Source: Antitrichia curtipendula (taxonomy: Eukaryota; Streptophyta; Bryopsida; Hypnales; Leucodontaceae). From it: a stretch of DNA of 64,000 bases. The notes under the pieces were generated by a model that was not told where the DNA came from, did not search any database, and saw only the letters and a list, made by a program, of their open reading frames with translations. Of this stretch, positions 35,253 to 58,869 are shown piece after piece (position 1 is the stretch's first letter; each line of letters starts with the position of its first letter). The stretch covers positions 124,001 through 188,000 of the forward strand of contig OX579634.1 in the NCBI GenBank assembly GCA_951230915.1, given 5' to 3'. Both the position numbers and the translations under genes were made by a program.

Positions 35253-35274
35253 GGGTGAAAGCACACTACGGTTG
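35253..35274 (+). repeat. Left terminal inverted repeat of the giant transposon
   Basis: Identical to the inverted right end over 22 bases. Just inside, cccgtgaact occurs twice (about 35386 and 35396 onward), and GTAC motifs begin within 60 bases. Confidence 0.92.
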
Positions 35275-35466
35275 CCCCCCTGGCCCGATATACAAACAAT
35301 TACGCACAGTACAGATTGTACGCCATTTGGTACGCCTCGTATTCTGGCGGGTTTTCCGGTACTCTGACAAAGTACCCGTGAACTCGGGCAACGGTCCCGT
35401 GAACTAGGCGCTTCAGGTAGTCGCCTGAATGCTTCGATGCTCTTTGAGTTTACAGTTTTCTTGTGA

Positions 35467-38400
35467 ATGTTTACAATGGCGAATACCAGACTTGGAGAGC
35501 GACGTGCCGGATTGAAGAGGAAGGGACCTCATGGAAGGGCGGAGGATCACAATGCGGTGAGAGATAGTCTAAGAGACGGGGAAGCAGAGAGGCAACGTAA
35601 ATGTAGACAATTATTGAGGGAGAGAGAAGAAGCAGTGAGGTTACTTGCTGTGCAGGATGAATTAGAGGTCGGAAGGGAGATGTCTTCACGACAGCTTGCG
35701 GAGGTTTTGTCCGAAATTGTGGATTTTTTCACAATGAAAATGCAAATTTGTTCGGAGGCATCTTCTAGGCTAAGAATTATAGAGCGTTTTTTGGAGGATG
35801 AACGTATTTCTCCATTTCTTCCTGAGTATTATCCTCATGGGCAGGATGCCAAGGCTCAATTTGAATTCCTAAAAAATTATCAGTTGGAGTTGGACGCTGT
35901 GAAGGGTGTTCAATCGGCAGATATGCTTGCTAGGAAAGCTGTTCTCCTCGATGCGGCTATATCTACTCGCGTTACAAGCACCAAAGCTTTGTCACGGGTT
36001 TTGAATGTTCACCCATCCAATTTGAGGGTGGCAATAACCCGTCGAAGTAGTGTACGATTGCAAAGTTCACCTTTTGCACTTGTAAGACGTAGGAAGAGGC
36101 CAAGCCTACCTGGCGAGATTAAAGACCTCATTACCAAGTGGTGGACAAAAGAGACCCGTGTAAGTCCCAACATGAAGGAAATTGTACAGAAATGGATAAG
36201 CTCAAATACATACGGCAAGCATTGCATTCACTATTTGCTCGAAAGTCAGGTACGAATCAATTTGATTGCAGTGTCGTAGCACCCTGTACAATCGTTGCAT
36301 TGTCAAATATACAATCCTAGACATCGTTTCCATCTGACATGTATGCTAGGCACCTTGTTGTATCTCCCTCAGTTCTCTGATGGTCTGAATGTGTACTCTG
36401 CAATACGTTGATTACAATGTTATAGGTACAGACAGTACTAAAAACTGTACATTAGGTACAAAGAGTACGATGGGTCTCATGGTCGAGTATTCAGAAAGTC
36501 TTTGTAGTCAGGTGGTTTGCTTTGTTGGAGGCTTGTACTTGACGTTTATGCTGAGCATTACGGTCCAAGGTATATTCTGTACGGGCTTTATACTTTTGAT
36601 TACCTCTTTTGTATTACCTCTTTTGATTTCTCAAAAAAGTTTTGCATTCTTGTAGGCCGCATTCCACCAGCGATTTAAGGTGGCGCACCCAGACGTGCCA
36701 ATCAAACAAAGAGCCTTTGAGAAACTGAAGCCTTACTTTGTTAGAGCGTGCAACGAGAGGAATGTCTGCTGTTGTAGATACCATGTGGAGATCGATATGC
36801 TCAGGGAGGGGTTCAATCGGATTCAGGATGGCACAAAGGGAATCCATTTCTGAGTGAATTGCCAGTACGAGTGTGATGTGTGCCTCTTTCGACTAGAAGA
36901 AGAAGCAAAGTGTAAAGCGCATCTGAAGACATATGCAGGTATAACAGCGCTGTGGCAACAGATCGTTTGTCTTAAGCCTGAGAACGAAGAGTGGCATGCT
37001 CTGCAATGTGTCATGGGTACGTGCGGAAACTGTGGTATTTCGAAGCTTCCAATTTGCGAGGTTGAGTTATCATTGTCTTCAAATGTAACCTGGAAGTGTT
37101 TTGAGAATGAAATCATTGAGGTGACACGGGATGGGAAGCCCCGGAAGAGGATTGTTGAAGTATACAAAGAGACCTCTCCACAAGTTTTCTTTGAATACTT
37201 CAAGTCTAAACTGCCCCAGTTTGTGAAGCACAACTTCATTGCAAGGTGGTAGGACGACCAGTGCAAGCGTTCTATGCAAAGTTTGGGCAAAGATGTGATT
37301 TTGTCACATATTGATTTTGCTGAGAACTACACTTTTGAGATTCAAAATCAGATCCAGAGCATGTATTGGTGTTCCACACAGATCAGTATCCTTGTCCACA
37401 TTACGTATTGCTTTAAACCAGACGGAGTTATGGTGAAGGAATTCCATTTCTATATAACTGATGATGAAAAACACGATTCCCTTTTTGTACAGCATTACTT
37501 GATGCAACACTGGCGATGGCTAGAGTCTCAAGGTATGCTTCACATTGCCCCAAGTTCTATATTTACCATATCGCTTTTCCATTCGTGCTACTTGCCTAGT
37601 TCTTATATAAGAGTTAATTGTGGATGGCACGGAACTCTCCGACTATGATGCATGTGTACTATAAAATGTATGCTCTGTACGGATTTTGTACATCACTTGT
37701 AAATGTTACGAAGTGTATTGACTTTTGTACGTGCATCGTGCATCGACAGGGATTCGACCAAAACACCACGTCGTGTGGTCCGATGGTTGTGCGGGGCAGT
37801 TCAAGGGTGCCCGACCATTTTTTTTTGTGGCCAGATATCCCGGCCTCACAAATGGATGCACTATGAACTGGAATTTTTTCGGAACAGGTCACGGGAAGGG
37901 AGTGGGACGGAGCTGGTGCTGTCGTGAAGCGCGCTCTAAGGCAGTCCCAGTTACACAACACGTGGAGAAGGATGCAAAACGCCGACGATGTAGTGGCGTT
38001 TTTGAATGAGACCATGGGAGGGCCTGTGGACACGAACTTCAAGAAGACCGGCATCAAAGAGGTTCAGAGATACTTCTGGGAAATACCGAAGGACGTCACG
38101 AGGGAGCGCAGTTACCATTGCGAGACTGTCTCAGGCTCCCAGGCCTTGCATTCAATTTACTCTTTTGCTGTTGCGGATCCAACTCAACTTTTTGTACGCA
38201 AGTTAACGTGCTTCTGTGTTTATTGCCTTGACAGCAATTTCTTCAACTGCGTTAACAAGTCCCATGTTGAGAACTGGGATTTGGTAAAGTTGAAGCCATA
38301 CGATCTCCAACTAGTTGCTGATCACATGACGGACCACGACGTTGCAGATGACGAGGATTGGGAGGAGGTCGTGGAAGGCGAGGGATTTGGCGATCTCATT

Positions 38401-38769
38401 CGGCCAGGTGACAACTTTGTTGTTTCTGCTGTAGAAGGCAATAGTGAGGGAGTGGAGTTCTATATTTTACAGTGCACCAGGGAGAAGTATGAGGTTGATC
38501 GCGGGTTCAAATGTGCATGGGGCCCGAAGTTTGAAGCTGGTGATTTCATCATACGGGGAACTTACTATCAAAAGTGGAATAATGGGTACGTTCATCTGGG
38601 CAACTCCCAACCAGCCCATATTGATGCACACCTTGTAGTGCATGGAAAATTTGCTATGATTCCAAAGCCAGGTAGGCGGAAAGGTGGGGAGGTTACTTAT
38701 GACATAAGTGACGACAACCTCGCTACTATTAGGGTCGGCTTACATCGGTTTAGGGAGGAAGAGGACTAG
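35467..38769 (+). pseudogene. DDE-like transposase of the giant transposon, decayed
   Basis: Three exons (35467-36249, 36656-37532, 37750-38769; GT-AG, in phase) would give ~893 residues. The N-terminal ~260 residues are charged and helical, with a DNA-binding-like segment (TKALSRVLNVHPSNLRVAI). A Cys-rich module follows (ACNERNVCCCRYHVE, then CDVC). The nuclease-like core has a first acidic box SHIDFAENYTFE, then HVVWSDGCAGQFKGARPFFF and NWNFFGTGHGKG. A second Cys cluster (CFCVYCLDSNFFNC) lies in exon 3, and the C-terminal domain ends GLHRFREEED. Similar SDG-x-x-x-QFK and HGKG boxes occur in eukaryotic transposase families known to me from memory. Lesions are TGA at 36851, TAG at 37250 and a frameshift near 37905, inside the HGKG box. 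The catalytic assignment is inference. Confidence 0.8.
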
Positions 38770-40127
38770 CAACTTTATTTCTGTAAGTACAAAGAGATAC
38801 TTTGTACATAATTACATATGTTTTGTAGGCTTTGTACAATTATGTACTGGGTTATTCTTGTCCGTCCGCTATGTCTACCGTTGCAACTCGTGAGATTGCT
38901 TTTCATGTGCATTCGAAGGATGTTCAAATTAATTTTTATTCGGTCATTACGGAATCATCTGCCGTCTTTGATGCGTTCTCGTCATTCTATTTGGCTTTTC
39001 TTGAATCTATTCTAAATACAAGGTCCATGATCCTTCATTGTCAATTACGACTGCGGTTTTAACTTAAGGTATTAATTCACGTTAAGCTTATATCTCTACT
39101 CATGCCTCATATGCACACCAACATGGTTTCAGAGTGCCGGAGGGAGAATTAACAGTTGACCGGGTTGCTTGAATTTGTTGGACAAAGCCGAGAGGTTAAT
39201 ACTATTGCTGTGTCAGCACAAATTATAGGTCTTTTTTTATTTTATCTATTGCAATTCTTTTCATTTGAATAGGTTGTTCAAAAGAGAAAGAAAACTTTTT
39301 AAGTCTTGTTATTGGTTTCAAAGAAGTCAATGTACCTCATATTCGTTAACAATATACCTGTGATTGAATAATCTGAAAAGTTTTAGTAGAGGTTTAGGAT
39401 TCTATGGATAATTGAAGATGAATTTCTTTGTAGTATACTTCTCTTACTTTATATACTTTTATAGCAATAGCGTTCAGCCGGTGCTTCTTTGTACAATCTT
39501 ATACACTTATACACCTACTTATACACCACCATCCAGCTTCTTTGTATAGTAAGAACTTGCCATTTTGAATTGTCATGTGCATTTATTTATTTTGTAAGCA
39601 TTATGCATAAACTCAAAACTTACATCGGCACTCTTAAAATGCATGATAGTCATTTGGACTTGTACAAATAGGTACCTTTGCACACTCGAAAGGCATGATA
39701 GTCATTAACTGTACATTATTCTCCCATGAACTACAATGATAAGAAATTATTGGACCTAGTAGTCCATTCGTTGAATCTACCATTGCATCTCCTAAGCTGG
39801 CTTCTCATGTGCATTACAAGGTCGTCCAAAATAATATGTACTCGGTTTCAATTCAGCTTATAGTCCTCTTTGACTCTCCGTCTGCGGTTCTGTACTTGTT
39901 GTACAATTTTATACCTTTTCTACAAATGTGTACGTTGTTGTTCTTGTCCATGTGGTGTGGTGACCTGCCGTATCAAACCGAATCATCTTGGAAGCCGCAG
40001 GAACGGTATTTTGGGAACAGTATTTTAGATTGACTTCTAGATCGTGACATCTGGACTAATCACATTCCCTAGAAAGGGCTCCCGAAATAGAATGGCTTGT
40101 CAGCCCTGTGAAATCGGGGCCATCGGG
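38770..40127 (+). other. Transposon spacer with a diverged internal duplication
   Basis: No intact gene. Text at about 38877-38985 (translating HVHSKDVQINFYSV) recurs in diverged form at about 39797-39900 (HVHYKVVQNNMYSV), about 915 bases apart. This suggests a decayed duplicated exon or transcript segment. GTAC motifs are common. Confidence 0.5.
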
Positions 40128-40375
40128 TTCCTTGCTCACCTTTGTTGTTGCTTTCTATAGCTCATTTGCTTTGGTACTTGAGAGACTTAGGAGTGTCCGC
40201 CTTCTCGTTTCATGCTGACCTTTGTCGCCGCTTTTGATAGCTCATTCGCTTTGGTGCCCTGAGAGACTTAGGGGTGTTTGCCTTCTTGTTTCATGTTGAC
40301 CTTTGTTGCTGCTTTCGAAAGCTCATTTGCTTTGGTGCCCGAGAGACTTATAGGTGTTTGCCTTCTCGTTTCTAG
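40128..40375 (+). repeat. Tandem repeat, ~80-bp unit, three copies
   Basis: Three units spaced 80 and 81 bases apart share tgacctttgt, gctcatttgctttggt and gagagacttaggggtg. The closing text gccttctcgtttctagtcttg recurs near 50630 next to another satellite. Confidence 0.88.
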
Positions 40376-41135
40376 TCTTGTACGTGTTTGGCTTCTTATT
40401 TTAATCTTGCACTAGTTGAATTTGCGGTGTGGGGATGTCTAACCATAATTGTACACTTGTTCAACAATGCATCACGGATTACTTTCCATTTTGTACCTCT
40501 AGACTAGTTCAACAATGCATCACGGCTTACTTCCCATTTTGTAGTACTAGAGAGTTTGATTCTTTGGTTACTTGGACGGAAGGATCATATGTTTCAGAAA
40601 CACCGACGTCCAAGCAAGGCAACCTTGCGTACTACCTAGGACTTTGTAGTATTAGACATATGTCTAGCACTACTGTCGTCAGGAGCAGCAAGGCACTATT
40701 TGAGCGAGCAGTGGCGACTGAAGCCCCTCCAGTATCGTGTGACTCAGTTAATCAGAGTATGTGAAGGTTTGTATACGCAATTCCTATTAGTTTCATTCCA
40801 CTTAAATTTCAACTTACCTACTGCACTGATTATTATCTTGCTATGTTATACCCATTGTAGTTGTTCATTGCATTGAACTTGATTGAGCTTTCAGAGTGTA
40901 GGATGATCATAGAGACTTATACTCTCTATACATTGGCAGGAATGGAGGTGAGGTTCGGGACGTACTATTTGTAAAATCACTATGTCAGTTTCCTCATCTC
41001 TTTCCTTGTACATCGTCAATTTCTGTATTGGTTCATATACTAGTTTTAGATGTGGGGTACCCGTTGTACTCTGACTACTGTATTTGTACTGATCTTACTG
41101 CTTTTATTGTTGGAATGTACTAATTGTAACCAAGG
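40376..41135 (+). other. Possible decayed exon in the giant transposon
   Basis: An open stretch (40429-40764) begins with two near-copies of a ~60-base segment (gttcaacaatgcatcacgg at about 40458 and 40507) and continues with ARG/Ser-rich text such as KALFERAVATEAPP. It may be the upstream part of the gene whose exons lie at 42126-42453, but no splice link can be shown. Confidence 0.3.
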
Positions 41136-41554
41136 TTCAGAATTGTTGGAATACATTCAATTCTGAAATTGTAGTGTTCGTAGTGTTTGTATTAGAATTC
41201 AGAATTGTTGGAATACATTCAATTCTGAAATTGTAGTGTTCGTAGTGTTTGTATTAGAATTCAGAATTGCTGGAATACAATCAATTCTGAAATTGTAGTG
41301 TTCGTAGTGTTTGTATTAGAATTCAGAATTGTTGGAATACATTCAATTCTGAAATTGTAGTGTTCGTAGTGTTTGTATTAGAATTCAGAATTGCTGGAAT
41401 ACAATCAATTCTGAAATTGTAGTGTTCGTAGTGTTCTTATTAGAATTCAGAACTGTTGAAATACAATCAATTCTGAAATTGTAGTGTTCGTAGTGTTTGT
41501 ATTAGAATTCAGAACTGCTGGAATACAATCAATTCTGAAATTGTAGTGTTCGTA
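41136..41554 (+). repeat. 62-bp minisatellite, seven copies, each a small hairpin
   Basis: Units start at about 41136, 41198, 41260, 41322, 41384, 41446 and 41508. Each contains TTCAGAATTG and, about 12 bases later, CAATTCTGAA, which can pair as a 10-bp stem. The remainder is gtagtgttcgtagtgtttg-type text. Variation between units is limited to a few bases. Confidence 0.95.
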
Positions 41555-42125
41555 GTAGGACAACTGCATTTGTACCGATAGCGGTGAGTGAATGGAATGT
41601 TCGTAGTTGCTGCACTACCATTCTATGCTTCCAATAGTACGTTCTGTACAAATTGTAACAGAGGTTCAGAATTCAAAGTTCTCGAACTATATTGAGTTTA
41701 CAAACTGCAATGTCTGTAGTGTTCGTACTTGCATAGTGTACTTCTAATACTTACATTAGTACTAATAATCCTCATGGAACAATCAGAGTACGAAAATTGT
41801 AGATGTACATTTTAGTGTACGTTGAGTCTGACCTTTTCGTACTGATAGCAGTACAAAATGAACTACCAGTACATCAAGTGCCAGCGGAATGTCCATTGTT
41901 CCGTCGTTCAGCTCGGACTTGCTTCCAGTGCCCCCGTCCAATTTCTGCCGCCACATGTCTTGGTTCCTAGTTCTTGGTTCCTTTTTTACTGCTCCGATGC
42001 CTTTTTTTTCTTCTGTATTCCCTTCAAGTTGACCTTGTTTCATCTTCTTTGCTGTTGGACACATTGCAATGGGGGTTATGATGTCTCCCATTCCCAACTG
42101 CAAGGCTGAGCTGCGTTATTATCTT

Positions 42126-42453: not shown

Positions 42454-42626
42454 AGGAAAGGGTGGTTTTGTTTTTTTAAAGTACAATCTTAAAGAAGTTG
42501 TTGGAGAGTTAGTCTAGAGAGTGCATGTACGTTTGTGATTCATCAGTAAATTTGCTTCCCTTCATAAAATATATACTCGGAGTATGTGAGTACACATTGT
42601 TCACAGGTCTGTGTTCTCACGTTAAT

Positions 42627-43125
42627 TTGCAACATGCATATGTCATACGCTATGTACAGTTCTATACAAAATGTATAAACTGTACAACAAGGATGTACCC
42701 CTTGTTGTTAACTGGCTTCTTACTGCCTCATTTCAAAGTGCTGTCTTTCAACTTTGATGCCTTCAAAAAGCAACACGAGTATTAACATGTGTTGCAACAC
42801 ATGCATATGTTATACGCTATGTACAGTTCTATACAAAATGTACAAAGTGTACAACAAGGATGTACCCCTTGTTGTTAACTGGCTTCTTACTGCCTCATTT
42901 CAAAGTTCGGTCTTTCAACTTTGATGCCTTCAAAAAGTAACACGAGTATTAACATGTGTTGCAACACATGCATATGTTATACGCTATGTACAGTTCTATA
43001 CAAAATGTACAAAGTGTACAACAAGGATGTACTCCTTGTTGTTAACTGGCTTCTTGCTGCCTCATTTCAAAGTACGGTCTTTTAATTTTGATGCCTTCAA
43101 AAAGTATCACAAATATTAACATGTG
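42627..43125 (+). repeat. Tandem repeat, 167-bp unit, three copies
   Basis: The text atgcatatgttatacgctat starts units at 42634, 42801 and 42968. Each unit also carries gtacaacaaggatgtac, ttaactggcttctt and tttgatgccttcaaaaag. Each unit is bounded by the palindromic text tgttgcaaca. The last copy touches the 3' end of the SUVR-like coding sequence. Confidence 0.95.
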
Positions 43126-45412
43126 TTGGGCAAGCGATTGGTGATGGGATGAATTGAGTGATCGTCAATTACTGTGTCACGGCAGTGAGTGCTACCACAC
43201 TTACAATAGAAGGGAACTACAACATCTACAGCCCCGACTTCTGGCATTTTGAAGCTACAGCCATAATCCCAAGTCAATTCTTCCAACAGAGGAATGTCTA
43301 CTTGTGTAAAGAATGCAACACGGTAGAGTCTTGGGTCCGAGCAGCTTATTTTGACGGGCACATCAATGAGGTTGGCGTCTTCACATCTTGAAAACAAGCA
43401 ACTACATATAATGAGATTCAAAGCAACACAAGTACAATGAACCCTCAATTTGTACAATAAGCATCACAACAACAAAAGCAGTTCAAAATCACAAAGTACA
43501 ATTTCTGGCAAATACTTGTGGTTCAGAAATCTACTGACATTTCCACAAAAAGTGTTGTCTATGCACAATGCCATATCATCGGACACCACTTGCTCGGATT
43601 TCCAATCAGCATCAAGTGCTAGAGTGAAAGCCTCTGATTTTCCCAATCTTGAAAAAGCTCTACGTTGCATGAGCTCAGCATTTGTAACGATCTCTCCTGC
43701 ATATTCAAAGAGAAAAGTCCCCTTCCAGATTTGCTTCTGTGTCCATAGTCCCCAACCCTTCTCTCCAGCCCAGAAAACCTCAATGGGAATGCATAATCCC
43801 TTCTGAACCACTCTGTTGCCACATGAACTATCACAGTTGCATGAGTCGTTGCATTCTTGAATAAAAACCCTATTGATATGACCAGGGCAAGCAGAACCCT
43901 GCTCACCACAACATTGTACATTGCAAAAGGACGCCTCTTCCGACAATACCTGTACAAATCAATATACAGTCGGTACCAGTTGTACAAATCAGTACAACGT
44001 CAATATGCAAGATACATTGTATGACTGTAAAGGTAGAGAAAAAAAAATGTATAGTGCAACAAAATTAGTGGTGCCCTTTCAATTAAAAAAAAACTTACTT
44101 ATTGGTTTAGGATGGATCTCCGTAAACGACCTCGCTTGTCATACGCCAAAGAAAAAAGTTTTTTCACCCCACAACAACATGCATGGCCGTGACAAGTATG
44201 CTCACCACAGTGGCAAGAAGCGGGGATATCGGCTTTTACTTCAGCCAGATTTTTAGATGCAACTATGGATAGTTTGGACTGAGGATAGTAAGTAAACTCC
44301 TCTAAATCATGGAATTCCATACTTGGCACACATACCGTGATTGGAACTCTTTCTAATCCGTTGGACAAGTCACGTGCATCATACCAAAATTGTTCCTAGG
44401 GACAGAAATACACCCTCAAAAACATGTAAGCTTGTAATAGCGGATCTAATATTCGAGAGTAACGAAACTATAAATTAAAATATTATAAGGGGCGAGAGGG
44501 TGGCCTCGAGCCCTAATTGACTGGTGCTGATTGGCTCACTTTGGGTCTCTTGGGTTTCAACTTCTTCGCCTCTGGTTTCTGCCCCGTATCTTTAGATCTC
44601 CGCCTCTTTCTCCTACATTCCACAGAAAACACGTATCTGTAACACTTGTACATTCACATTGAATGTTGTAGACATAAGAAGACTAGACAGAATGACAAAA
44701 CATTGTAAAGATAGAATACCTAGATTTTTTTTTCGGTGTTGATTCAGCAGCCTCATCTTCTCCTTCTCTTCCGCTGGCTTCTGCATCCACTGTCTCTCCG
44801 ACATTAGTGTCCTCCCCCCACCAACTCCACCCGTGATTTTGTCATTGACCTCTTTCTCAGTACTAGGGCCTTCTCCCCTTCCAACTTTGCCTTTGGTTTT
44901 GTCCACAACATCCCCTGTACTGACAGTGGCTTCTTCAACAACACCTCCCTCAGTGACTGCTAATATGTCCTCCACCGCCCCAGCAATGGCCTTTTCCCCC
45001 AAGGTGCCAACACTAGCTTCAGTAGCAACGGTGACCTTCACATGGGCTTCATCAACAGAGGTGACATTGTCTTCATCACAAACGGGGACGATGGCTTCAT
45101 AATCAATGACATGTGGCACGGAATCAATTGAAGTCCCTTCCACAGTAGTGGCCTCAACCATCCCCTCTCTGCTAGGGTGTTCTTCCACAGCGGTGGCCTC
45201 AGACCTGCCTTCTCTGCTAGGGTGTTCTTCCACAATGGTGGAATCAACCCTCCCCTCTCTGCTAGGGTGTTCTTCCACAACGGTGGAATCAACCCTCCCC
45301 TCTTTATCGGAAGCTCCTTCCACAGCGGTGGCCTCAACCATTCCCTCTTTGCCAGGGTGTTCTTCATTCCCGGAGCGTTCACCATCACCATCCTGGTCCT
45401 TATTCCGAAATA
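43116..45412 (-). pseudogene. SUVR-type SET-domain histone methyltransferase carried by the transposon
   Basis: Plant SUVR proteins are nuclear lysine methyltransferases of the SU(VAR)3-9 group. Inferred exons: 44720-45412, 44540-44612, 44099-44395, 43517-43949 and 43116-43386; any earlier exon is unknown. The N-terminus is acidic with 16-residue repeats, followed by a Lys/Arg-rich NLS-like segment (KPEAKKLKPKRPK). Pre-SET: DARDLSNGLERVPI, ASCHCGEHTC, CCCG, then CNDSCNCDSSCGNRVVQKG. SET: GWGLWT (cofactor site), EYAGEIVT, GNVSRFLNHKCEDANL and EELTWDYG. Post-SET: CKCGSTHC. All usual catalytic motifs are present. Lesions: a TAA at 44099-44101 just before a strong donor, and a one-base deficit in a run of nine A at about 44727 that shifts the frame into the NLS exon. 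The match to SUVR1/2/4 order is close. Confidence 0.87.
45129..45366 (-). repeat. 48-bp tandem repeat inside the SUVR-like coding region
   Basis: About five in-frame units encode EEHPSREGRVDSTVV-type peptides, with alternating tails (STVVEEH or EATAVEEH). Units differ by a few bases, and one unit reads GASDKEGR. Both the frame and the acidic character are kept. Confidence 0.9.
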
Positions 45413-45698
45413 CTGTCCGAAAACTGGACCGGCTTATACAATCCGAGCACAACGAACTGTACAAATTTGTACACAAAATACATTTTCCCGATTTGGTTCT
45501 ACATTCCAAAACAAACACATTTCAAAAATGCAATTATCCTCGTATACAGTAAAATTATACAAATTCTGTACACGAAATACAATTTACTACTATGCCTCTG
45601 CTTTCCAAACAGAACAAGTTCACAAATTTGTACACATTCGTACATTTGACACGTATTCATTAAAAAATGTAATATCTAGCAAATATGGCCTAAATCTA

Positions 45699-48600
45699 TC
45701 AAGCTTCATTTGGGGATCTTGACCTACGCTTCTTCCTTGGACCCTCTCTACATCTCCAAAATACACATCAAATAGTTGTAGAAAACAAAACGCACATTGC
45801 AATATATCCAGAAAGTTGTGAAAATACAAAGAGCCTGCAGGAAAGGATTGAAAAGACCAAAATAAGGTAAGGTTCAAGGATTATACCCAAATGTGTACAG
45901 TCCAAATTTTTGCCTTGCCGTTGTACATTCCTCACAGCCCATGCAAAAAATATCATGACAACCCCGCACCACCAAACCTTCCCCTCCATCTCCGCCAGTG
46001 TCTACAGTGGATGGGAGTGCCTCCGTCCTACACTCCGACACAGCATATTGTAAACCCAGTAGGTAATGTGCTTTGGTGGGTACACAATAAAAAACAAAAA
46101 TAAAATGGACTGAAAGAAACAAAATTAATACCCTGTTGTTGTTGCTTCTATTGTTGATAATGCAGCCTGTGCTCGTTCTTGGAGCCTAGAGGCAGGACCG
46201 TCTACTCCGCTGCTACCCCAAAATATGTTGGTGTGTTCCACAGTAATCCCCTCTTCATCGCCATCTGCCGCAAAATTTTCTCTCCCTCCTTCTCCATCAG
46301 AGGAACCAAGCGCTGCACAAAAACACCATCTTCAATACCCTATAAACCAAGTTCTATATCTCAATCGGGTACAAACATACGATCATGTTACATGTCATAG
46401 TACGAAAGGTACAACTTTGTACAAGTTGTACATACAAGTTGTACAAATTGTACAAATTGTACAATCTAAATAAGAATAGAAAATAATTGAATAACACAAC
46501 GACCTAATAATACTGCCTAAGTACTAACAACATGGAAACCTGTACAAACTCTCCTAAATATATTACAATAGGTACAACTACAAGGACCACAATATACATG
46601 AAGTACAAATGAAGTACAAATGAAGTACAAAAAAAGAACGATGTATCAGAAACTTTAACCAACAGTACAAATCTGAGATACAAACAATACAAACAATACA
46701 AACAGAAGGGCAATAGTAAACATCAAGTACAACAAGGAACAACAAGAAGGACCACAACTAACATGAAGTACAAATCAAGGAACTCAGATCAGTTGCGATA
46801 AACGATGTATCCGACATCTTACCCAACTGTACAAACCTAAGATACAAATATACAAACAATACAACTAGAAGGGCAACCGTAAACATCAAGTACAAATCAG
46901 TTATTTCTAAACACCCTTTCGGTAACGATCTACACGAAACGTAATAGAACTGTACGAAATTGACATAGCATGATACAAACAGTACAACCAATATTACAGA
47001 AACTAGCACCTTTCTCCCAATCCTCCCAATCCCAAGAAAACCAGGGGAATCTAACAAAACTGTACTATATGTACAATCAATACAAAGTTGTACCAATAAT
47101 AATGCAGTTTCTCGATATCACCTTCTTCATCCTCGATGGTTGTTCTACACTGCTGGATGGCTGTGCGAATTTCCGTTGCTGCATCGGTCCTCGCCGCTAA
47201 TCCACCAGTGATGGAGGTGGCACATGCTGCCTTCAATTTCATCCATTTTTCACTCCCACCTCTAGGGCGACCACAACCACGAACACCCCTCCAACCAAAA
47301 TTCATAATCCACTCAATGGGCTGAACTTGCTTGCAATTCAAAGCAGAGCATTCTGTGCCCTCGGTGAAATTCACCAATGCACACCATGGGTGATAGAGGT
47401 GTTTACATGCAAAGACAACCATCTCAAAATGTGGGAATGGAAAACCGCACAAGGCGCACATAGAATCTCCTCCTCCACTACTTGTTCCTCCTCCACTACC
47501 TATTCCTCCCTCGACGTACACCATCAGTAATGGCCTCAAATGAAATCCGCATGATGCACGCCCCAAATAAGCATGCTCTTCCTGCAAAGCACGAACTTGC
47601 ATTCGCATCTTCAGAACTCGGTGGTGCTGGAGCTTCAGAGTCTTTTCATAAGTAGCAACTTCGCCCTCCAACTTGATCACTTTCTTGAGTTTGCCGCGTA
47701 CCAAATCGTTGTATGCATCCACCTTCTCCCTTAGCTTCAACCCCCCCCCCCCATCTGTTGTCGTTGCCTGTAGCTGCTTCTTGTATGATTTTTGTTTGAT
47801 CTTCATGATCTTCACCACCCCCTTGTGATGATTCAAAGCTTCTGTCCGCCTCTCCTTGGTTGTAGTTGCCTCCTGCTCAGCCTCCACCCTAGCCTCCAGC
47901 TCCAAGTTCTCTACAGCCAACAATCGTCCCAAGTACTCCAACCTGGAGTTACATTCCTCCCCCTCCAACACCAATCCACCCATGGAACTCCCTCTGCCCT
48001 CGCAAATTTCAGATTGCAACTCCCGTTTGTCGACATGAAGTTTCCGCCAAGCCCCCACCGTCCCTGTCTGCTTCACCTTTCCCTTCATCTTCTACAGCTT
48101 CATAACATTCCGCTCATGCAGCGTACGTTGGGTCTTATTAGTAGCCTCCGTAGTAGGCGGCCCAATTAACTGGGGTGTTTTCTTGCTCCAAAACGATCCC
48201 CCGCGCCATCTTATGAGGAAGCAAGTTACGGGGCACTCCTCGCTGATAAAGAGCTCGTAAGAGCTCTTTTATCCTCTTTTGCAACTCCGGTGACTTCACG
48301 TCCTTCCAGCTATATCCATAGCGTCCATGTTTACCTACCGGCTTTCCAAATATCTTGACACACTTCTTGTTATCAAATTTCTTCCCTTTCCACTTTGTCA
48401 AGCGATTCGGCAAGCACCCTTCATCCTTGAAGCCGTACTTCTCCACAAAATCAGCTTTGGTCAGTACGGGTGGTGGATCGGTGAGCTTCTGGAGCTCTTC
48501 ATCCACATCATCGGCATTGAACTCCTCGCCCTCCTCCTCCTCGTCGCCCTCCTCCTCCACCTCCTCATTGCCCTCCTCCTCTTCCTCGTTGCCAGTCCTC

Positions 48601-48789
48601 TCCTCGCTACCAATTCTCTCCTCGCTGCCAGTGCTCTCCTCGCTGTCGGATCTCTCCTTGCTGCCAGACCTCTCATCGCCCTTCTCAACGTCCTGTTCTG
48701 CTTGTTGGACTTGGGGTTCACCGAGTGACTGTGCCCGTAGCACTGAGGCAGCGCCTCTGCCTCTGACCCGTGTCATTTCTTGCCTTAAC
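45699..48789 (-). pseudogene. Coiled-coil protein with RING-like finger, paralogue 1
   Basis: Inferred exons: 47122-48789 (with breaks), 46132-46339, 45887-46027 and 45699-45747; the three downstream junctions are GT-AG and in phase. An acidic Glu/Ser-rich N-terminus (GSEERIGSEERTGNEEEE) precedes a conserved block with TKADFVEKYGF, KKCVKIFGKPVGKHGRYGY and MARGIVLEQE. A long coiled coil follows (LREKVDAYNDLVRGKLKKV), then the finger: CALC, CKHLYHPWC and CSALNC, the C-x2-C / C-x-H-x2-H-x2-C pattern of RING-like domains. The tail has another Cys group (CHDIFCMGCEEC) and ends in a basic GPRKKRRSRSPNEA. Breaks are a frameshift near 48140 (after AAYYGG) and TAG near 48089. It could be a ubiquitin-ligase-like or chromatin reader protein; function is unknown. 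Confidence 0.72.
46340..47121 (-). other. Large intron of paralogue 1, extremely GTAC-rich
   Basis: Between the RING-like exon and the next inferred exon the DNA has no frame but is packed with GTAC. For example, seven occur between 46400 and 46465, mostly as ttgtacaa. Short units such as gaagtacaaat repeat in tandem near 46606-46632. Confidence 0.6.
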
Positions 48790-50600
48790 TGCAACAAACA
48801 ACGACATTATGATGTAACCCCTAGTACTCAGCCGACATATACAATTTTGAAACAAATGAGATGGACTGCCAAATGTAGAGGTGGGATTGACCGCACACAT
48901 TCCTGTACGCACAGTACAATTGGGAAGTGGGGTTTGCTGCTCAACAACCTGAAACTGAATTCACAGATTCAATTAAAGCATACAAATTCAAGAAGAAAAA
49001 GAGTAAAACAATGCAAGAGACCCACCAACTTGATTGAGAACAATTCTATTCAGATCGAGCTCCACAACACGTAGCATTGTCCACCTAAAGAAGCAATAAC
49101 AACTCCTAAACCCTAAACCCTAAGCCGACTAAAACAAGTAGAAAACGTACTAAAATAGTACGTGTAGTACAGATTTGTATGCAAGTAGTCCGGACAAAAC
49201 ACACATTCCGGTACAACGCGTTCAAATTGTACGCACAGTACAACTGGGAAGTGGGGCTTGTTCATTCCCTGTCTTTGCCACCCTGAAACTGGATTCACTA
49301 AACCGATTTGGCCATAAGGGTTGTGACTAAAATCAATGTTGTCGACATCTGAACCTTAAGTGCGTAGATTGTTCTCTTCGGGAAGAAAAGAGTAAAGCAA
49401 TGCAAGAGACCACCACCTACTACAACAATATGATCAAAGGTAAGGAGAAAGGGAAACAAGTGAAGGCGCACCGTAATCTGTCGAAACTGAGTATTAGACC
49501 TTGCAAAACAGCATGAGCAAACCAAAATTCTTACGCACAACACATACTCAAAACAATGGCTTTACCAGGAGGGACAGCCTTGACGCAGTTCACCTTCTCT
49601 CTTCCCAATCCGTTGTATCTAACGATAATGCTTTGCACCCTCTGTTGTATTTGACGACAATGCTTTGCACCCTCCTCACCCTCCTTGCCCTCCTCAGCGA
49701 ATTGAATTTCTCCTTAAACCACCAACATGAGATCCACAAGTCGCCAACCACCAAAGTCGCTCAAAGGCTTCGGAATCAAACACATTTTGAAGCTTGGAAA
49801 TTGGGGTTTTCACGGAACTCCACCATAAATCAGAGATTGAGAACAGTTCTACTAAAATCAAAAACACGACGACGCTAAACCGAACAAAACGTCACTAAAC
49901 AAGCGAGGTGAGAACTGAAGTCAGCGGGCAAGAAAGAGGTCTCCCATTTCCAAACCCGCTGTCAATCACAGGTCGTCGCCGGAACTCAAACCGGGTACCA
50001 CCAGTCACCGCACGAGTTGACATGACCGCTTGGGTAAAGAAACCGGTTATATTCATGACCACCAATGAATGCAACGAATTATTGTAAATAATATGCATTT
50101 CAACTTATTATAACTTCACCAAATGATGTATTGGAAGTTCTAAAAAACTTGAACTCTTGGTTTTCAAGTGGTTCCACATTTTAAAAAATTATCAATTGTG
50201 TCCTTATTCTAAAAGAAATAAAAGAAAAAAATTGAATCATACTAATGTAAAAAAATGGATGGTCTTACTCTTATAAAACAAACACTCTTTCAACCTAGAC
50301 CAAAGTAGTTATTTCTTTCTTTTTCTAAGAGAAATATTCACCCATAGTAATAAAAAGAAGTGTGTTATGGGTAACCTAGAATTACAAATCATTGTGATTG
50401 GAAGTACAAACTGGTCTTCCGGACCACCCGCTTCCTTTTTTGTTTCCATTTTATATTTATAGGAAACACATACCCTAAATCAATAAGTTGGGTGGGGTTT
50501 GTTTAAATTTAATTTATAAATTTTCCTTAGCCTCTGAGTATATATGAATCAATTTTAACAAAATATTCCCAAAATCCTTGGAAACTAAATGGAGAAGTGC
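48790..50600. other. Transposon spacer with an internal duplication
   Basis: The text gtacgcacagtacaa-tgggaagtgggg followed by cctgaaactg-attcac occurs at about 48907 and again at about 49230. Text like agagtaaa-caatgcaagagacc occurs at about 49003 and about 49389. A segment of about 150-200 bases was therefore duplicated. A short telomere-like run (cctaaaccctaaaccctaag) sits at about 49110. No gene is supported. Confidence 0.6.
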
Positions 50601-50649
50601 TCACCAAAATAAATTGTCCATTATCGTTTGCCTTCTCGTTTCCAGTCTT

Positions 50650-51690
50650 GAATGTTGGGTTTTTTTTGAATTCAATCAAAGACTTACCAAAAGAATTTAG
50701 AGCATCCACGGACTAACAAAATAGGAATCCACAATAATCGAGGTACACCTAGTGTTGGATTTTTTTTTATTTTTTTATTCATCCAAGGACTTACCAAAAG
50801 AATTTAAAGCATCCACGGACTAACAAAATAGGAATCCACAATATTTGAAATCCACAATATTTGAAATACACCTAGTGTTGAATGGGTTTTGTTTTAGGGG
50901 GATTCAATCAAGGACTTACTAAAAGAATTTAGAGCATCCACGGATTAACAAAATAGGAATCCACAATATTTGAAATACACCTAGTATTGAATTTTCTTTT
51001 GGGGGGGATTCAATCAAGGACTTACTAAAAGAATTTAGAACATCCACGGATTAACAAAACAGGAATCCACAATATTTGAAATACACCTAGTGTTGAATGG
51101 GTTTTGTTTTGGGGGATTCAATCAAAGATTTACCAAAAGAATTTAGATCATCCACGGATTAACAAAATAGGAATCCACACTATTTGAAATACACCTAGTG
51201 TTGAATTTTATTTTTTGGGGATTCAATCAAGGACTTACCAAAGGAATTTAGAGCATCTACAGACTAACAAAATAGGAATCCACAATAATTGAGATACATC
51301 TAGTGTTGGATTTTTTTTTTTTTTTATTCATCCAAGGACTTACCAAAAGAATTTAAAGCATCCACGGACTAACAAAATAGGAATCCATAATAATCGAGAT
51401 ACACCTAGTGTTGGATGTTTTTTTTTTTTTGGATTCATCCAAGGATTTACCAAAAGAATTTAAAGCATCCACGGACTAACAAAATAGGAATCCACAATAT
51501 TCAAAATATACCTAGTGTTGAATGGGTTTTGTTTTTGGGGATTCAATCAAGGACTTACCAAAAGAATTTAGAGCATCCACAGATTAACAAAATAGGAATC
51601 CACACTATTTGAAATACACCTAGTGTTGAATTTTACTTTTTTGGAATTCAATCAAGGACTTACCAAAAGAATTTAGAGCATCGATGAACT
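50650..51690 (+). repeat. Satellite array, ~100-125-bp unit, about ten copies
   Basis: Each unit contains caatcaaggacttaccaaaa, gaatttagagcatccacgg, actaacaaaataggaatcc and acacctagtgttgaa, then a T/G-rich tract of variable length. Copies are recognisable near 50693, 50798, 50925, 51025, 51140, 51245, 51345, 51450, 51560 and 51665. Unit length varies because of the T/G tract and small insertions. Confidence 0.93.
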
Positions 51691-52136
51691 AACGTTGTAA
51701 TGGGTATTTTTACAAATTAAATACTCAACCATAAAAAGGATGTACATGCATATTCTAGTTCTTGAGAAAAAATAGTCAATCATGTAGTAATAAAAATAAT
51801 GGATATTCTTACGAAATAAATACTCAAACATATGAAGGATGCATATGCATATTCTAATTCTTGGATAAAAAATATTCAAGCATGTAGTAATAAAAATAAT
51901 AGATATTCTTACAAAATAAATAGTTGACCATAATAAGATACATATGGATATTCTCGTTTTTGTTATTTAAGAAATATTAAACCATAGTAATGTAAGGGAA
52001 GGTGTTTCTTATTCTTATAAAGGATAAAATTTAACAATAATATGAAATAATAATGGGCGTTTTTATTCTTACAATAGAAAGATCCAACAATATTAAAATA
52101 TACTGTGTATTTTTTTTTGTAATACCCTAAATACTG
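51691..52136. other. AT-rich spacer with short duplicated motifs
   Basis: The phrases attcttacaaaataaat, catgtagtaataaaaataat and gcatattctaattcttg recur two or three times between 51700 and 51960, spaced about 110 bases apart. This suggests another short, degenerate tandem array. No coding sequence. Confidence 0.55.
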
Positions 52137-52212
52137 AATTCTAAAACCCTAAACCCTAATCCTAAACCCTAATCCTAAGACCTAAGACCTAAGACCTAAG
52201 ACCTAAGACCTT
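52137..52212 (+). repeat. Interstitial telomere-like repeat
   Basis: Runs of aaccctaaaccctaa with tcctaaaccctaa variants are followed by five copies of aagacct. The heptamer is the plant telomere unit (CCCTAAA) with point changes. Confidence 0.88.
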
Positions 52213-52319
52213 CAGATGACAATATTAAGAGAAGGTTGTTGTTTTCCTTATAAAAGAGAACATAGAACTATAAATATACCTGTAGGAGCTAATATTAATG
52301 TACACATGTTCTCTGCCTG

Positions 52320-52600
52320 TCATTGCACATCGGATTCCAATCTTTTCCTTGGATAAATGACAAGAAAAGAGTTCCGCCTTTTTTTGAATTTTGCAAAAGA
52401 GAATGTACCTGAAAAAGCACCCCTGATAACCTGGATGTAGTTGCAGGTGAATCCTGATTTAGGCAGGACGTGGTGGACGTTCATTGGTCCCCTACATACA
52501 ACATGTACACACTGTATTCTTTTATGCATTCCTAAAGTCAACTGAAGCTTCCAATCCAGAAGACACATTTGCAAGAATATTTGGTTACAAAGATATGGAT
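52320..52600. repeat. Module copy A, shared with 56374-56604
   Basis: Text including tttttgaattttgcaaaagagaatg, ctgataacctggatg, gaatcctgatttag, cattggtcccc and tgtattc matches 56388-56540 in order, with moderate divergence. It lies on the 5' side of paralogue 1, as copy B lies on the 5' side of paralogue 2. Confidence 0.65.
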
Positions 52601-53093
52601 ATATACCAATGTAGCTACATTGCTGCAGCTGTACAATATTTCATTAACTGAAGCCTAAAAACCTAATGGAACTGTGTAACAATATACTCAATAACTAATT
52701 TTCAGTGTCTACCTAAGTCGATACACTAAGTACAAACCGTCGAGATGCAGTTTATATGCAAAACTATAGGGCAAAATTATCGGAATGTACACCATAAATT
52801 TTTTAAATTTTTGGTCAATTTGTTGCTGCTGTGAGACAATTCCAGCCTAGCCAAGACAATCCCTCCAAAAATGCACCAACGTTGTGAGGGCACAATTGAT
52901 TCTACTATTCCAAATAAACCCTGTTGACTCAGAATAGAATGTTGCAATTTCAGATACGGAATACAATGCTGCTATTTCAGAGTCGGAATACAATGAGGCC
53001 TTTCACTCGCTCGTTCATACAAGTGGCCCAGCATACAACATTACGTTGATGACGTACTAAAATGTACAATACGTACCGAATGCATCCCTAACT
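52601..53093. other. Transposon spacer, no gene seen
   Basis: No coding sequence. A short direct repeat, gaatacaatg-(c/a)(t/g)gc(t/c)-like text (cggaatacaatgctgctatttcagag and cggaatacaatgaggcctttcac), is seen at about 52960-53005. Confidence 0.45.
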
Positions 53094-55529
53094 CTAGCCA
53101 AGTGGAGTAACTCTGTGGCTTTTCTTGGTTTTCTTCGGTTTCTTCTTCGCTTCCTCTACCTCTTTCGCTGCTTCCTCCGCAGCGATCTCACTTCTCGTTT
53201 TCCGCTTGGATATTGCAATGTCATTGTCAAGTGGAGGCAGTGGTGGGGGCTGAGGCACCTTTACCACCCCCCTAATCACCCCATCTAAGATGGATGCTTG
53301 CTCTCTTATTTTTTTTCAACGCTCTAAGTCTGCAGCTTCTTGTCTTAACTTTTCTACTCTTTCAAATTCTGCATCTTCTTCTTTCAACTATCTAATATGT
53401 TCCTGTAGCTCTGCCTCAACTCCTATCTTGCAAGACATACTAGAAAAAATAGCAAGAGGCTCTGTGATAGCATCAGGCTGAATTTCCACTAGAACCTCTA
53501 GACTGTTCTTAATAGGATCTACAACTTCATTTATAGATGGTAGGTGGGAACGTTCGACAGACTTACCCCTATCAGCGGCACTGCCGTCACCCAAACTTTG
53601 CAACAAATTAGTCCCACCAGTCGAGCCATCGGTCCCGACGGTCCCACTGAGGCTCAGCACGGGATCTGTGCTTTCTATATCAATCAAGGTTTTAGAGTCG
53701 TCCAAAACTCAAGTCCGTGTGGACACCATGTATTTTTTCAATTGCTCTTGGTATAGTTTCTCTGGATCTGAACCACAAAAAAACACAGGTAACTTAGTGA
53801 GGTTGTAAATCAATAGATGGAGACCGGAAATCAATAGACAACCCGCTTCGTAGTTCGTACCGTTATGTGGATGTTTTTCTACTGTTGCATACCAATTGTA
53901 CAGAGGTTTGTACTTGACATTAGATTGTCAAGTATCAATATATAATTATTTACTGTTTGTACTGAATAGTATAAAATTTGTGACTAATTGCATAAGGCTG
54001 TATTCAACAGGGCAGAATTGCGTACCAATATGTGGATGGGATTCCAAAATTGTCGATGTCAAGGTTGCGAGGAGCCTCTCTTGCTCCTCCTCTAACTTCG
54101 AAGATTGTACTAGTTGTTGAAGAGTTGCATGTAATTTGCCAAATCCGAAACTAGTAAACCAAGAGGGATGCACTGTTGTACCGCAAGATGTATCTGCGTA
54201 GTGGCTAGAAACTCCAAACCAGACCCCCGCGCACCATGGATGATATAAGTGGCCGCATGTGCACACTATAATGTCTTTGCGGGGAAATCCGCTGAAGCAA
54301 AGTGCACAGGCTGTTAAAGAAATGCTGTCAACATCGGAAACGGTCTTGGGCTCAAATTGAGAGCACAAAGGCCGTGGTCTCAAATCCACTCCAACTTCAC
54401 CTCTCTTCATTTTAGCAATTTGGGATGACAAGGCATCAAATTGCCTCTTCAAACACTTCTCCCTAGCTTCAAGATTTTTGTACCTCAAATTACATTGTTC
54501 CAATTCCAGTACAGCTGCATCATAATCAATCAGAGCGTCCTTTACCATCTCATTGTATGCTTCCAATTTATCCGAGGCAACCTCCACGGCCTCCGCTTCA
54601 TGCTCTAGCTTCAGAACTTTGTCTTTAGTTCTTCGCAGCACTCCTTCTTCTTGTGAGGCCTTGGATTGCAACTCAGTTCTCTCTTTTCCAACAATGACAT
54701 AGTCTTCTGTTACAGCATGCAACTGTAGTCCTACCAACTTCGTCAAGTCGATGAGGTATGTGATGTCTTTTTCACTTTCTGTACAGTTTTGTACGCTCTG
54801 TATATCGTCTCGTACAGCACTGTCCATCCTATACTGAGTCTTTTGAAGTTCTGTTGTAGGGTCATTGAAAAGGTTGTCGATGCCTTCTGCCTTGTATATT
54901 TCCTTCTTGTTAGAGCCGGTGATGTTGGCAATGGCCGCCAAACACAACGTAATCTTCTTGAACCATTTGCTCCGTTGATTTTTATTGGAAGTTCCTGCAA
55001 ACTCTGCCCAACTTACGAGTTTTCTTTTGCGCTTCTCCATGATGATTCCCCTAGCAAATTGCTTTGCTATCACCTTGGACCTTGGAAGATCTCGTAACTA
55101 CACAAGTGGCAAAATTTGAAGAATACGATGAAGAACTTCTTCATCCTTGCATTCCGCATAACCGTACCCATATCTTCCATTTCTCCCCTTTGCTGGTCCA
55201 AAAACATCGCTCACATCTTTCTCAACAAGATCGTGTGGAATTCTAAGTTTATGTGGTTTTTTACCGTGTTTGGGTAAGCCATACTTGGTCTCAAACTCCT
55301 TCGTAGTAACAGCTCGAGGAGGAGGATGCTTCTTCAAAGAAGCCAACTTCTCTAATTCCTTATCCAAAGGACTCTGCTCCACCTTTGCGTCTACAATATC
55401 GTCGGCCCCTGGCGAGGTAGCGAGAATATCATCGATGAAGTCCTTGTTGCTAAAAACACTAATGCTGCAGTGCTCATCTTTCCCTTGAAAAAGTCGGCTC
55501 CGAACCACCCACTCGTCGTCGGACGCCAT
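53094..55529 (-). pseudogene. Coiled-coil protein with RING-like finger, paralogue 2
   Basis: Two inferred exons: 54026-55529 and 53094-53767 (GT-AG, in phase). The start is MASDDEWVV at 55529. The order matches paralogue 1: TTKEFETKYGLPKHG, VFGPAKGRNGRYGYGY and FARGIIMEK; a coiled coil (AYNEMVKDALIDYDAAVLEL); then the finger CALC, CTCGHLYHPWC and SCGTTVHPSW. The C-terminal exon has PLPPLDNDIAISKRKTRSE and ends basic (KKKPKKTKKSHRVTPLG). The two proteins are clearly homologous but strongly diverged outside these blocks. Stops in frame: TAG near 55097, TGA at about 53709, TAG near 53387 and TGA near 53318. Function unknown; likely nuclear because of the basic tail. Confidence 0.75.
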
Positions 55530-57088
55530 CGTCTTCAACGACTACAAAAAAGAATCAAAAACAGTCGTTTTAAACAATTATGTCCGCGAACTCTTACAAA
55601 GTGTATCTAAAACGTACAAAATGTACTTAAACAATGTATGTATTGTACAATGAATGTACTAGTGAACTCTCTCGTCTCGTTCCAAGGAAAACTATGTACC
55701 CCAGGACAATGCAAACTCTCGAAACTGTATGAAAACCATTGTGTACCTAACCACGGAAATGTTGTACTAAAACATTGTACATATTGCACAGTGATTGTAC
55801 CTAATGAACTTCGTGAAGGAGGCATGTTGTATCTAACAAGTAACAACGTAAAGGCTATATTAAAATATTGTGCATATTGTACTTTGATTGTACCCAATGA
55901 ACTCCGTAAACAATGCTGTTGAATCTAACAACGTAGACGTTATACTACAACATTGTATATACTGTACAGTAATTGCAACCACTGAACGCCGTGAAGGAGA
56001 TGTATTGTAAATCAACCGCTAAAGAAATATCGAGACCGATTCATGTTCTAAAGGTAGTCGTTCTAATCTAAATCCAGATTCGTACCATAAACAAGGTCTA
56101 CAATCGTTCTAATCTCAAAACAAAGACCTCGCGGAAATCGACCACCGAGGAAATCGACCTTTGTGGAACTTGGGCAGTTCTATACCTTTGTGAAAATCGA
56201 TCTCGTGGAAATTGACCTCGGTGCGTTCAGCGTCCCTCCTCGCTCCTCTCCCACGAATGCGCAAATTGTAAGCGGAGCTGTGAGGTTGGTCCACTTTCTT
56301 CAACTTCCGTGTGAAGTGCTGCAAATTCAAAACAACTAGACACATGATGGATAGTAGACAAGATTAGACAACATTAAGATAGCGCTGCATTTTTTTGAAT
56401 GTGCAAGAGAGAATGTCGCTGCAAAAGCACACTGTATAACCGGGATGTTGCAATGAATCCCGATTTAGATGATATGTGGCAGACGACTATTGGTCCCCGC
56501 TGTACAATAAGTATGTACAGTACGTTCTGTGTACAATGGGCAAACCCTAGAGGCTGCCAGGACGTTTCAACTAATAAATCTCCGATAGAGAAAATTGTAA
56601 CCAAAACATCATGTATACCAAAATGAAATATTGGCCCATCTCAATAAAAAGGTCTTTTTATAGATTCTAAAATTTAAAATGAAAATACACACTTTAAAGT
56701 CAAAATTTGGACCTTGTACCAAAATCACACATTTGTAAGGATATTTTCTTATAAAATTCCCCAAACCCTAGTGAAATGCCAAAACATTGTATGTAAACAT
56801 TAGAACATTGAATGTAGTTCTTTGCATTGCAAGAATGAACTCCTAAACTTGACACAATAAGTACAACAATGCTAAAGCTGAATCTGTGACAGTACAAACA
56901 TTTTATGTTTGTACTTTATACATTGAATTAATAGATGAAAGTCACTTTTTTGCTATGCAATTTTCAATGTGCACGAGATGTAAGACTTTGCCTTATTTTT
57001 TTTTTCCAAAAAACCAACCAGAACTATAGTAAAATTGACTCTAAACTTTCATCCTGTGCAGAAATTCTGCCGTGACTACGATTTTGGA
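55530..57088. other. Right subterminal region of the giant transposon
   Basis: No gene. It holds repeated ~115-base stretches around 55640-55990 built on atattgta(c)-gtgattgtaccta-tgaactccgt text, the module copy B at 56374-56604 and many GTAC sites. The 22-bp inverted repeat follows at 57089-57110. Confidence 0.6.
56374..56604. repeat. Module copy B, shared with 52320-52600
   Basis: Matches copy A through tttttttgaatgtgcaagagagaatg, tgtataaccgggatg, gaatcccgatttag and attggtccccgc. It lies about 0.9 kb from the start of paralogue 2. Confidence 0.65.
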
Positions 57089-57110
57089 CAACCGTAGTGT
57101 GCTTTCACCC
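57089..57110 (-). repeat. Right terminal inverted repeat of the giant transposon
   Basis: Ends ...CGTAGTGTGCTTTCACCC, the perfect inverse of the left end, followed by the AAGC duplication. Confidence 0.92.
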
Positions 57111-58855: not shown

Positions 58856-58869
58856 GTGGGCCCATAACC
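58856..58869 (-). other. Copia primer-binding site matching the initiator tRNA-Met anticodon arm
   Basis: Directly beside the 5' LTR the plus strand reads GTGGGCCCATAACC. From memory this is the anticodon arm of plant initiator tRNA-Met (CAU in the loop), not its 3' end. That position implies priming by a 5' half-tRNA, as established for Drosophila copia. Confidence 0.8.

Follow-up and report, generated by a model that had tools for sequence, protein, structure and literature searches.

Sola elements, as far as the available text of two accounts goes, make 4-bp target duplications, encode a DDD-type transposase, occur in moss and in some cases exceed 15 kb, and Sola1 is reported in Physcomitrella (PMC10741241, PMC9033089). 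In Phytophthora, HarbingerS and MuDR transposons bear a gene for a SET histone methyltransferase, as cited in the accessible part of PMC12730594. The targets of VANC in VANDAL transposons are described, in the portion available of PMC5735166, as introns and intergenic and terminal non-coding regions, often in tandem repeats. Here we analyze a stretch of 64,000 nucleotides from the moss Antitrichia curtipendula (assembly GCA_951230915.1, contig OX579634.1, positions 124,001 to 188,000), hereafter the window, in which positions 35253-57110 are a DNA transposon of 21,858 bp. We consider it likely that this interval is a decayed copy of a multi-copy, roughly 21-kb cut-and-paste transposon family, probably Sola, with putative SET and RING-like chromatin factors of its own.

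The limits of the element can be read directly in the window. Its ends are 22-bp inverted repeats that match perfectly (GGGTGAAAGCACACTACGGTTG), and AAGC is duplicated immediately outside them (Table 1). Joining the flanks (240 bp per side, one AAGC retained) gives a 160-codon open frame on the minus strand, with 7 and 9 stops in the remaining two frames, and this restored frame looks by eye like the gag/pre-integrase region of a Copia polyprotein. A preliminary description, made from the sequence alone, had proposed the perfect ends, the AAGC duplication and the restoration of a Copia frame upon removal, all borne out here, and had placed inside the element a transposase, two RING-like paralogues and a SET gene of the SUVR type, which are all present. 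In the window copy each of these four genes is broken. The transposase has in-frame stops in exon 2 (36851-36853 and 37250-37252), and its exon 3 is 2 bp shorter than in frame-keeping copies, which causes a frameshift. The SET gene has a stop directly after the Pre-SET exon (44099-44101), and RING2 has one at 55098-55100.

To find relatives of the element, we searched the genome (400 Mb, 303 contigs) with the 22-bp end. Allowing up to two mismatches, the end occurs 189 times (93 forward and 96 reverse), far above chance given that the reversed control occurs 0 times. Among the matches listed, which comprise 100 of the 189 end places plus those from a further search, 107 distinct ends form at least 27 convergent neighboring pairs. 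Three of these pairs are under 1 kb (about 0.61 kb), 19 span 17-30 kb, the window copy included, and five span 36-108 kb; the 108-kb pair, an A-like end facing one of B type, is unlikely to be a single element. Thirteen of the 19 were read whole, namely the window copy and 12 others (E1-E12). Their 4-bp duplications are exact and mutually different in 11 copies (AAGC, GACA, ATGT, ATAT, GGTG, TGTA, TAAA, GCAA, AGGT, AGTG and TGCT) and carry one mismatch in the other two. The termini are GGGTG..CACCC in the 13 copies, with one mismatch within these five letters at one end of E9.

The preliminary description had proposed looking for further copies and comparing their gene content, and on both counts the outcome was positive: duplications are mostly exact, and all 12 other copies are co-linear with the window element, each aligning to 79-100% of it at a mean identity of 92-97%. 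A main gene region is deleted in only three (the SET region in E7, most of the transposase in E8 and E9). This comparison also bears on whether the interval is composite, a smaller transposon joined by separately inserted SET and RING elements with ends of their own. Long internal spacers, tandem arrays, internal deletions in some copies and greater length in others (up to 24.3 kb for the longest copy read whole) would be compatible with such an origin, but the alignment is co-linear in 12 of 12 copies, and the inverted repeats listed for the window show no inner end pair around SET or RING. We rejected the composite origin on these grounds and give it almost no chance of being right; for this family, co-linearity rules out a smaller true element as well as SET and RING genes inserted afterwards, the two outcomes that the preliminary description had named as refuting it.

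The three 0.61-kb pairs (C1:35430679-35431289, C5:21547430-21548038 and C10:18534613-18535223) have the same or nearly the same ends and are apparently non-autonomous relatives resembling miniature inverted-repeat transposable elements; the 611-bp copy on C1 has an exact AAGA on both sides. Compared by blastn, the flanks (300 bp) of M1 and of the 12 other copies match neither the window nor each other, apart from one element's own two flanks.

The pairing of the SET gene with the transposase extends to diverged families, which we label A to D. Transposase loci were found with homologue P0001, scoring the best 70 of 499 candidates with one place per locus. The central SET exon has at least 154 genome matches (best 150 of 199 candidates scored), mainly in groups at about 85-100%, 66-75% and 40-55% identity, and 131 of the 154 were entered into the pairing, rows beyond the listing, second pieces and short, broken or weak rows being omitted. 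At 43 of the 70 scored loci, a SET exon lies no more than 11 kb downstream of the transposase on the opposite strand, and this recurs in families at only 42-51% SET identity. A family B locus has an end at C3:34609529, RING at 34611247, SET at 34622668 and, on the opposite strand, transposase at 34627952, with the same spacing as in the window copy. At L045, a family D locus, a transposase frame open for 697 codons adjoins a SET gene (Pre-SET, 1.5e-14) whose frame is open too. In at least four diverged families, the transposase has an opposed SUVR-type SET gene as its neighbor.

RING-like genes are found in families A and B and at part of the C-type loci. With the best 107 of 470 candidates scored, RING2 has at least 109 genome matches, in family A, in family B (about 52-69%) and in nine places at 30-33%. 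Six of these nine lie 2.8-3.9 kb past a SET exon on the same strand, and four of the six also carry a scored transposase. Because the copies share the same content, and diverged families share SET and in part RING2, we regard these as inherited element genes. The term ‘gene cargo’ in the preliminary description is thus misleading.

Purifying selection acts on both the SET gene and the transposase between families. By the Nei-Gojobori method, the ratio of nonsynonymous to synonymous rates (dN/dS) of the SET exon is 0.22-0.24 for A/B, 0.21 for D/D2, 0.28 for C/D and 0.22 for C/D2, and between A/B and C/D synonymous sites are saturated. Within families, where changes are few, it is 0.52 for two B copies and 0.29 and 0.20 for two A pairs. 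For the transposase, A/B values are 0.06-0.09. These results bear on the view that SET and RING are passenger genes captured by a single copy, as in Pack-MULE transduplication (MULE, Mutator-like element), with no role in the element. Plant DNA transposons commonly capture genes, and the SET gene resembles host SUVR genes at 35-49%. Against such capture stand the same content in 12 other copies, bar the three gene-region deletions, the presence of SET with transposase in families at 42-51% SET identity and of RING2 in B and part of the C type, and the purifying selection on SET. We therefore rejected single-copy cargo, a very improbable account.

The two gene trees group the families in the same way. 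A and B are sister groups in the transposase tree, where a 100/100 clade unites C and D with five metagenomic homologues. In the SET tree, A stands beside B and C beside D and D2, and a branch with 99/97 support separates the seven sequences of this genome from 15 SUVR-like proteins. An important caveat is that this tree used 15 of 67 listed relatives, six that could not be trimmed, a SUVH4 protein among them, being left out, with no outgroup and no named bryophyte SUVR, and that two members, L056 and L057, entered as SET exons alone; a single capture of the SET gene is therefore likely but not proven. L056 and L057 are two members of the 40-55% SET exon group, which is multi-copy and was followed as SET exons. 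A transposase lineage at 43-47% identity has no detectable nearby SET (for example C6:13685654 and C3:47313901) and is a useful natural control.

The SET product is of the SUVR type and closest to plant SUVR proteins. Pfam recognizes Pre-SET (5e-8) and SET (3e-17), and a post-SET region was recognized by eye. Of 67 listed relatives, 64 show 35-49% identity over 59-95% of the query, and those with names are mostly plant SUVR4, SUVR2 or SUVR1. The catalytic motifs look intact by eye, not dead, and we predict a SUVR-type methyltransferase for lysine 9 of histone H3 (H3K9). The RING proteins are paralogues with 26% identity (E 2e-32). RING2 matches zf-RING_2 at 3.6e-5, below the Pfam cut-off, and RING1 has no Pfam match, so ‘RING-like’ is the apt term. 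RING2 is free of internal stops in E1, E10 and E12, and the adjoining 277-codon open reading frame (ORF), which has stops in the window copy, reads open for 276-277 codons in eight of the 13 copies. The RING-like proteins are possible ubiquitin ligases, and their occurrence beside a SUVR4-like enzyme is suggestive because Arabidopsis SUVR4 is ubiquitin-responsive.

Database searches brought few leads for the transposase. Pfam gave no useful match, with no family matched by more than one of 21 homologues, a PDB sequence search gave 0 matches, and a scan of viral contigs returned 73 pattern stretches and no relative. Foldseek reached at best E 1.6e-3, with poor template-modeling scores, and a second look with VIA-align, restricted to the families listed there, was the only comparison to give a coherent integrase-like core. 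Residues D221, D306 and D348 are invariant across the 21 homologues (alignment A1), and they likely form a D-D-D catalytic triad, the third residue being assigned from its position at a helix start. We hypothesize that the superfamily is probably Sola, which fits best by its 4-bp duplications and the likely triad, the element being set against Sola by description only. The preliminary guess of Sola stands as to duplication length and D-D-D triad, and the assignment itself, drawn from descriptions, stays at probable.

Alternatively, the transposase could come from a different superfamily that makes short duplications (Lanisha/CMCT, AcademX or IS481EU) or from an unnamed one. In its favor are the lack of any Pfam family common to even two of the 21 homologues and the fact that Sola is known here by description; moreover, AcademX and IS481EU can produce 4-bp duplications, according to the available part of PMC10045372. 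AcademX, compared by description only, matches in its 3-4-bp duplication length; its transposase comes with a nuclease, and the ORFs scanned yielded no domain of a nuclease or a helicase. CMCT/Lanisha was rejected because the approximately 41 residues between D306 and D348 lack the C(2)C and H(3-4)H motifs, assuming that D348 is the last catalytic residue; in addition, the 5'-CA..TG-3' ends usual there are GGGTG..CACCC here. KDZ (Zisupton) does not fit, its duplications being 8 bp and these 4 bp. Overall, we find another superfamily rather unlikely and retain the probable placement in Sola.

The copies differ in age and share a signature of decay. E1-E5, E12 and the window copy differ from the column majority by 0.8-1.1%, and by 0.16-0.24% once C-to-T and G-to-A changes are excluded. 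With the same exclusion, E6-E11 differ by 0.6-1.7% and are older. All of these older copies lie on contig C5 (37 Mb), possibly a sex chromosome or one with low recombination. C-to-T (or G-to-A) changes affect 6.5% of CG sites (1020/15,776), 5.6% of CHG sites (954/17,154) and 1.6% of CHH sites (1200/74,978). Decay of cytosines at CG and CHG is the expected mark of plant CG and CHG methylation, and its strength here indicates that the copies are or were heavily methylated.

A short-motif density test found the word TGTACA to be dense in the non-coding and not the coding parts of the element, as in VANC-like systems. With exons and tandem arrays masked (exon borders being approximate) and Markov resamples for comparison (n=100), the non-coding DNA of the window copy has 45 occurrences in 11,979 bp versus 5.7 expected (standard deviation 2.2, maximum 10). 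Coding parts have 4 versus 1.7 expected, and the rest of the window has 12 versus 9.6. TGTACA words in introns and spacers may, by analogy, mark element DNA for an element protein.

Several observations weigh against an element that moves by its own transposase and owns its chromatin factors. No intact transposase exists among the 13 copies, the best being E10 with a single stop, so present-day activity is conjectural. In L047, a copy of family B, Asn replaces the first presumed catalytic Asp, probably through decay. The SET arrangement is missing at 27 of the 70 loci, 23 of the 43-47% lineage and 4 of A/B type, and the families are unevenly delimited, with both ends in view for A, one for B, and C and D known from gene loci only. 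Pfam found no WIYLD domain in the element SET protein. RING2 is listed at only 4 of 21 SET-bearing C/D-type loci and not at L045; either RING accompanies the transposase less regularly than SET does, or it has diverged beyond the reach of the search as scored. AlphaFold2 models of RING2 relatives, at a mean predicted local distance difference test score (pLDDT) of 48.5, are too poor for use. As for TGTACA, it was noticed by eye and picked post hoc, as the fourth-ranked 6-mer of the element; it is kept between copies at 88% versus 83% for permuted words, and in short non-coding samples its counts (3 versus 0.8 in D, 1 versus 0.6 in C) are not convincing.

In the mechanism we propose, the transposase would excise the element at both ends and insert it with a 4-bp stagger. 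The SET protein, a predicted H3K9 methyltransferase, and the RING-like proteins would serve as element-owned chromatin factors, altering host silencing or acceptance of the element in its favor, and the dispersed TGTACA words would flag the element's DNA to one of these proteins in the way VANC acts on VANDAL. More tentatively, and with real doubt, we suggest a giant plant transposon lineage with a core of transposase and H3K9-type SET and with RING-like genes in several families, whose chromatin-writing module, recognizing its own DNA through a dispersed TGTACA code, would have evolved together with the transposase while at least four families diverged.

How such factors would act can be framed in two ways. 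SET and RING may form an anti-silencing device, dominant-negative or re-writing H3K9, aimed at the element's own copies via TGTACA. The non-coding enrichment of this word, like that of VANC targets in VANDAL as given in the accessible text of PMC5735166, makes this quite possible, but the SET catalytic motifs appear intact by eye, the word was chosen post hoc and does not reach significance in families C and D, and no VANC homologue was identified, no sequence search aimed at VANC having been made. Alternatively, the SET protein may be a factor for self-restraint or targeting, with H3K9 methylation holding down copy number or directing insertions into silent chromatin. A SET enzyme of the SUVR type is predicted to deposit the silencing mark rather than take it off, the strong CG/CHG decay points to heavy methylation now or formerly, and the window copy is inserted in a Copia element. 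However, self-silencing brings a parasite little benefit unless it silences competitors or times the parasite's activity, and the unmatched flanks of the copies leave targeting of repeats unproven; we hold self-restraint to be possible. Anti-silencing and self-silencing or targeting cannot be told apart from sequence.

The interrupted Copia element has further features. Direct repeats at 30400-30764 and 58869-59158 resemble its long terminal repeats, AGTTC stands outside both of these by eye as a probable 5-bp duplication, and an inverted repeat lies within this presumed Copia element (32987-33144 / 33180-33337; 158 nt, 95% complementarity, 35-nt loop). An Rfam scan of the whole window gave 0 matches. 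The coordinates of the transposon's own features are collected in Table 1.

Table 1. Features of the transposon and its target site, in window coordinates.
Feature	Position	Strand	Basis
Target-site duplication AAGC, left copy	35249..35252	.	read in window
Whole element, non-coding parts TGTACA-rich	35253..57110	.	word count
Terminal inverted repeat, transposase-side end	35253..35274	+	comparison of ends and copies
Transposase exon 1, 258 codons, open here	35476..36249	+	comparison of copies, GT/AG borders
Transposase exon 2, first presumed catalytic Asp (HIDFAENY)	36656..37532	+	comparison of copies
Transposase exon 3, WSDG and GKGEWDGAGA motifs	37750..38769	+	comparison of copies
62-bp tandem repeat array	41074..41631	.	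repeat listing
167-bp tandem repeat with TGTACA/GTACA words	42632..43132	.	repeat listing, word count
SET gene last exon, CEDANL, ELTWDYG, post-SET CxC	43116..43386	-	motifs by eye
SET gene central exon, SUVR-type SET domain	43516..43949	-	splice borders by eye
SET gene exon carrying the Pre-SET region; gene may extend further 5'	44102..44395	-	ORFs, Pfam
Acidic repeat ORF, 45-bp repeats, unassigned; may be own gene or 5' part of SET gene	44613..45521	-	ORF
RING-like protein 1, broken here; full ORF in E3 and E12	47051..48776	-	ORFs, copy comparison
~107-bp tandem repeat array	50553..51693	.	repeat listing
277-codon ORF, possibly RING2 3' exon	53094..53927	-	ORFs, copy comparison
RING-like protein 2, zf-RING_2 below cut-off	53946..55529	-	ORFs, Pfam, copy comparison
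Terminal inverted repeat, RING-side end	57089..57110	-	comparison of ends and copies
Target-site duplication AAGC, right copy	57111..57114	.	read in window

The usual picture of plant transposons is one of targets for H3K9 and CG/CHG methylation. The lineage described here encodes a predicted SUVR-type H3K9 writer of its own, kept by selection in diverged families and often accompanied by RING-like partners. With defined genes, dated copies and a candidate word, the survival of large DNA transposons under plant silencing, or their manipulation of it, a long-standing question, becomes testable. Compared with plant SUVR4 and SUVR2, the element protein is alike in Pre-SET and SET (Pfam) and in the post-SET CxC, NHxC and ELTWDYG motifs (by eye), but it differs in the WIYLD domain, which was not found, and is separated by the 99/97 branch.

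Among described transposons, Sola is alike in 4-bp duplications, a DDD-type transposase (here a likely triad), a moss host and large size. It differs in that SET and RING genes, present in the window element, go unmentioned in the available text (PMC10741241, PMC9033089), and in that the duplications of amoebal Sola2 are AT-rich, as far as the accessible part of PMC3627910 describes them, whereas those of the element are not. Fungal transposons bearing TET/JBP (KDZ and others) are likewise several lineages with an epigenetic enzyme, but in the available text that enzyme is a dioxygenase instead of SET, and Zisupton has 8-bp rather than 4-bp duplications. VANDAL elements, which are Arabidopsis MULEs, share with the element the pairing of accessory proteins with a short non-coding motif (PMC5735166, accessible text), and the AC-type motif of VANC6, AGTTGTAC, has TTGTAC in common with the element word, possibly by chance. 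In the open-access literature, the scope of our search, with most subscription papers and Repbase Reports outside it, we found no plant or Sola case of a SET-bearing transposon. The Phytophthora HarbingerS and MuDR elements are also DNA transposons with a SET histone methyltransferase gene, although they belong to other superfamilies and hosts and the available text of PMC12730594 mentions no RING partners. SET genes in DNA transposons are thus already known from oomycetes, and what appears new here, within the literature searched, is a conserved, selected SET-transposase pair in a plant.

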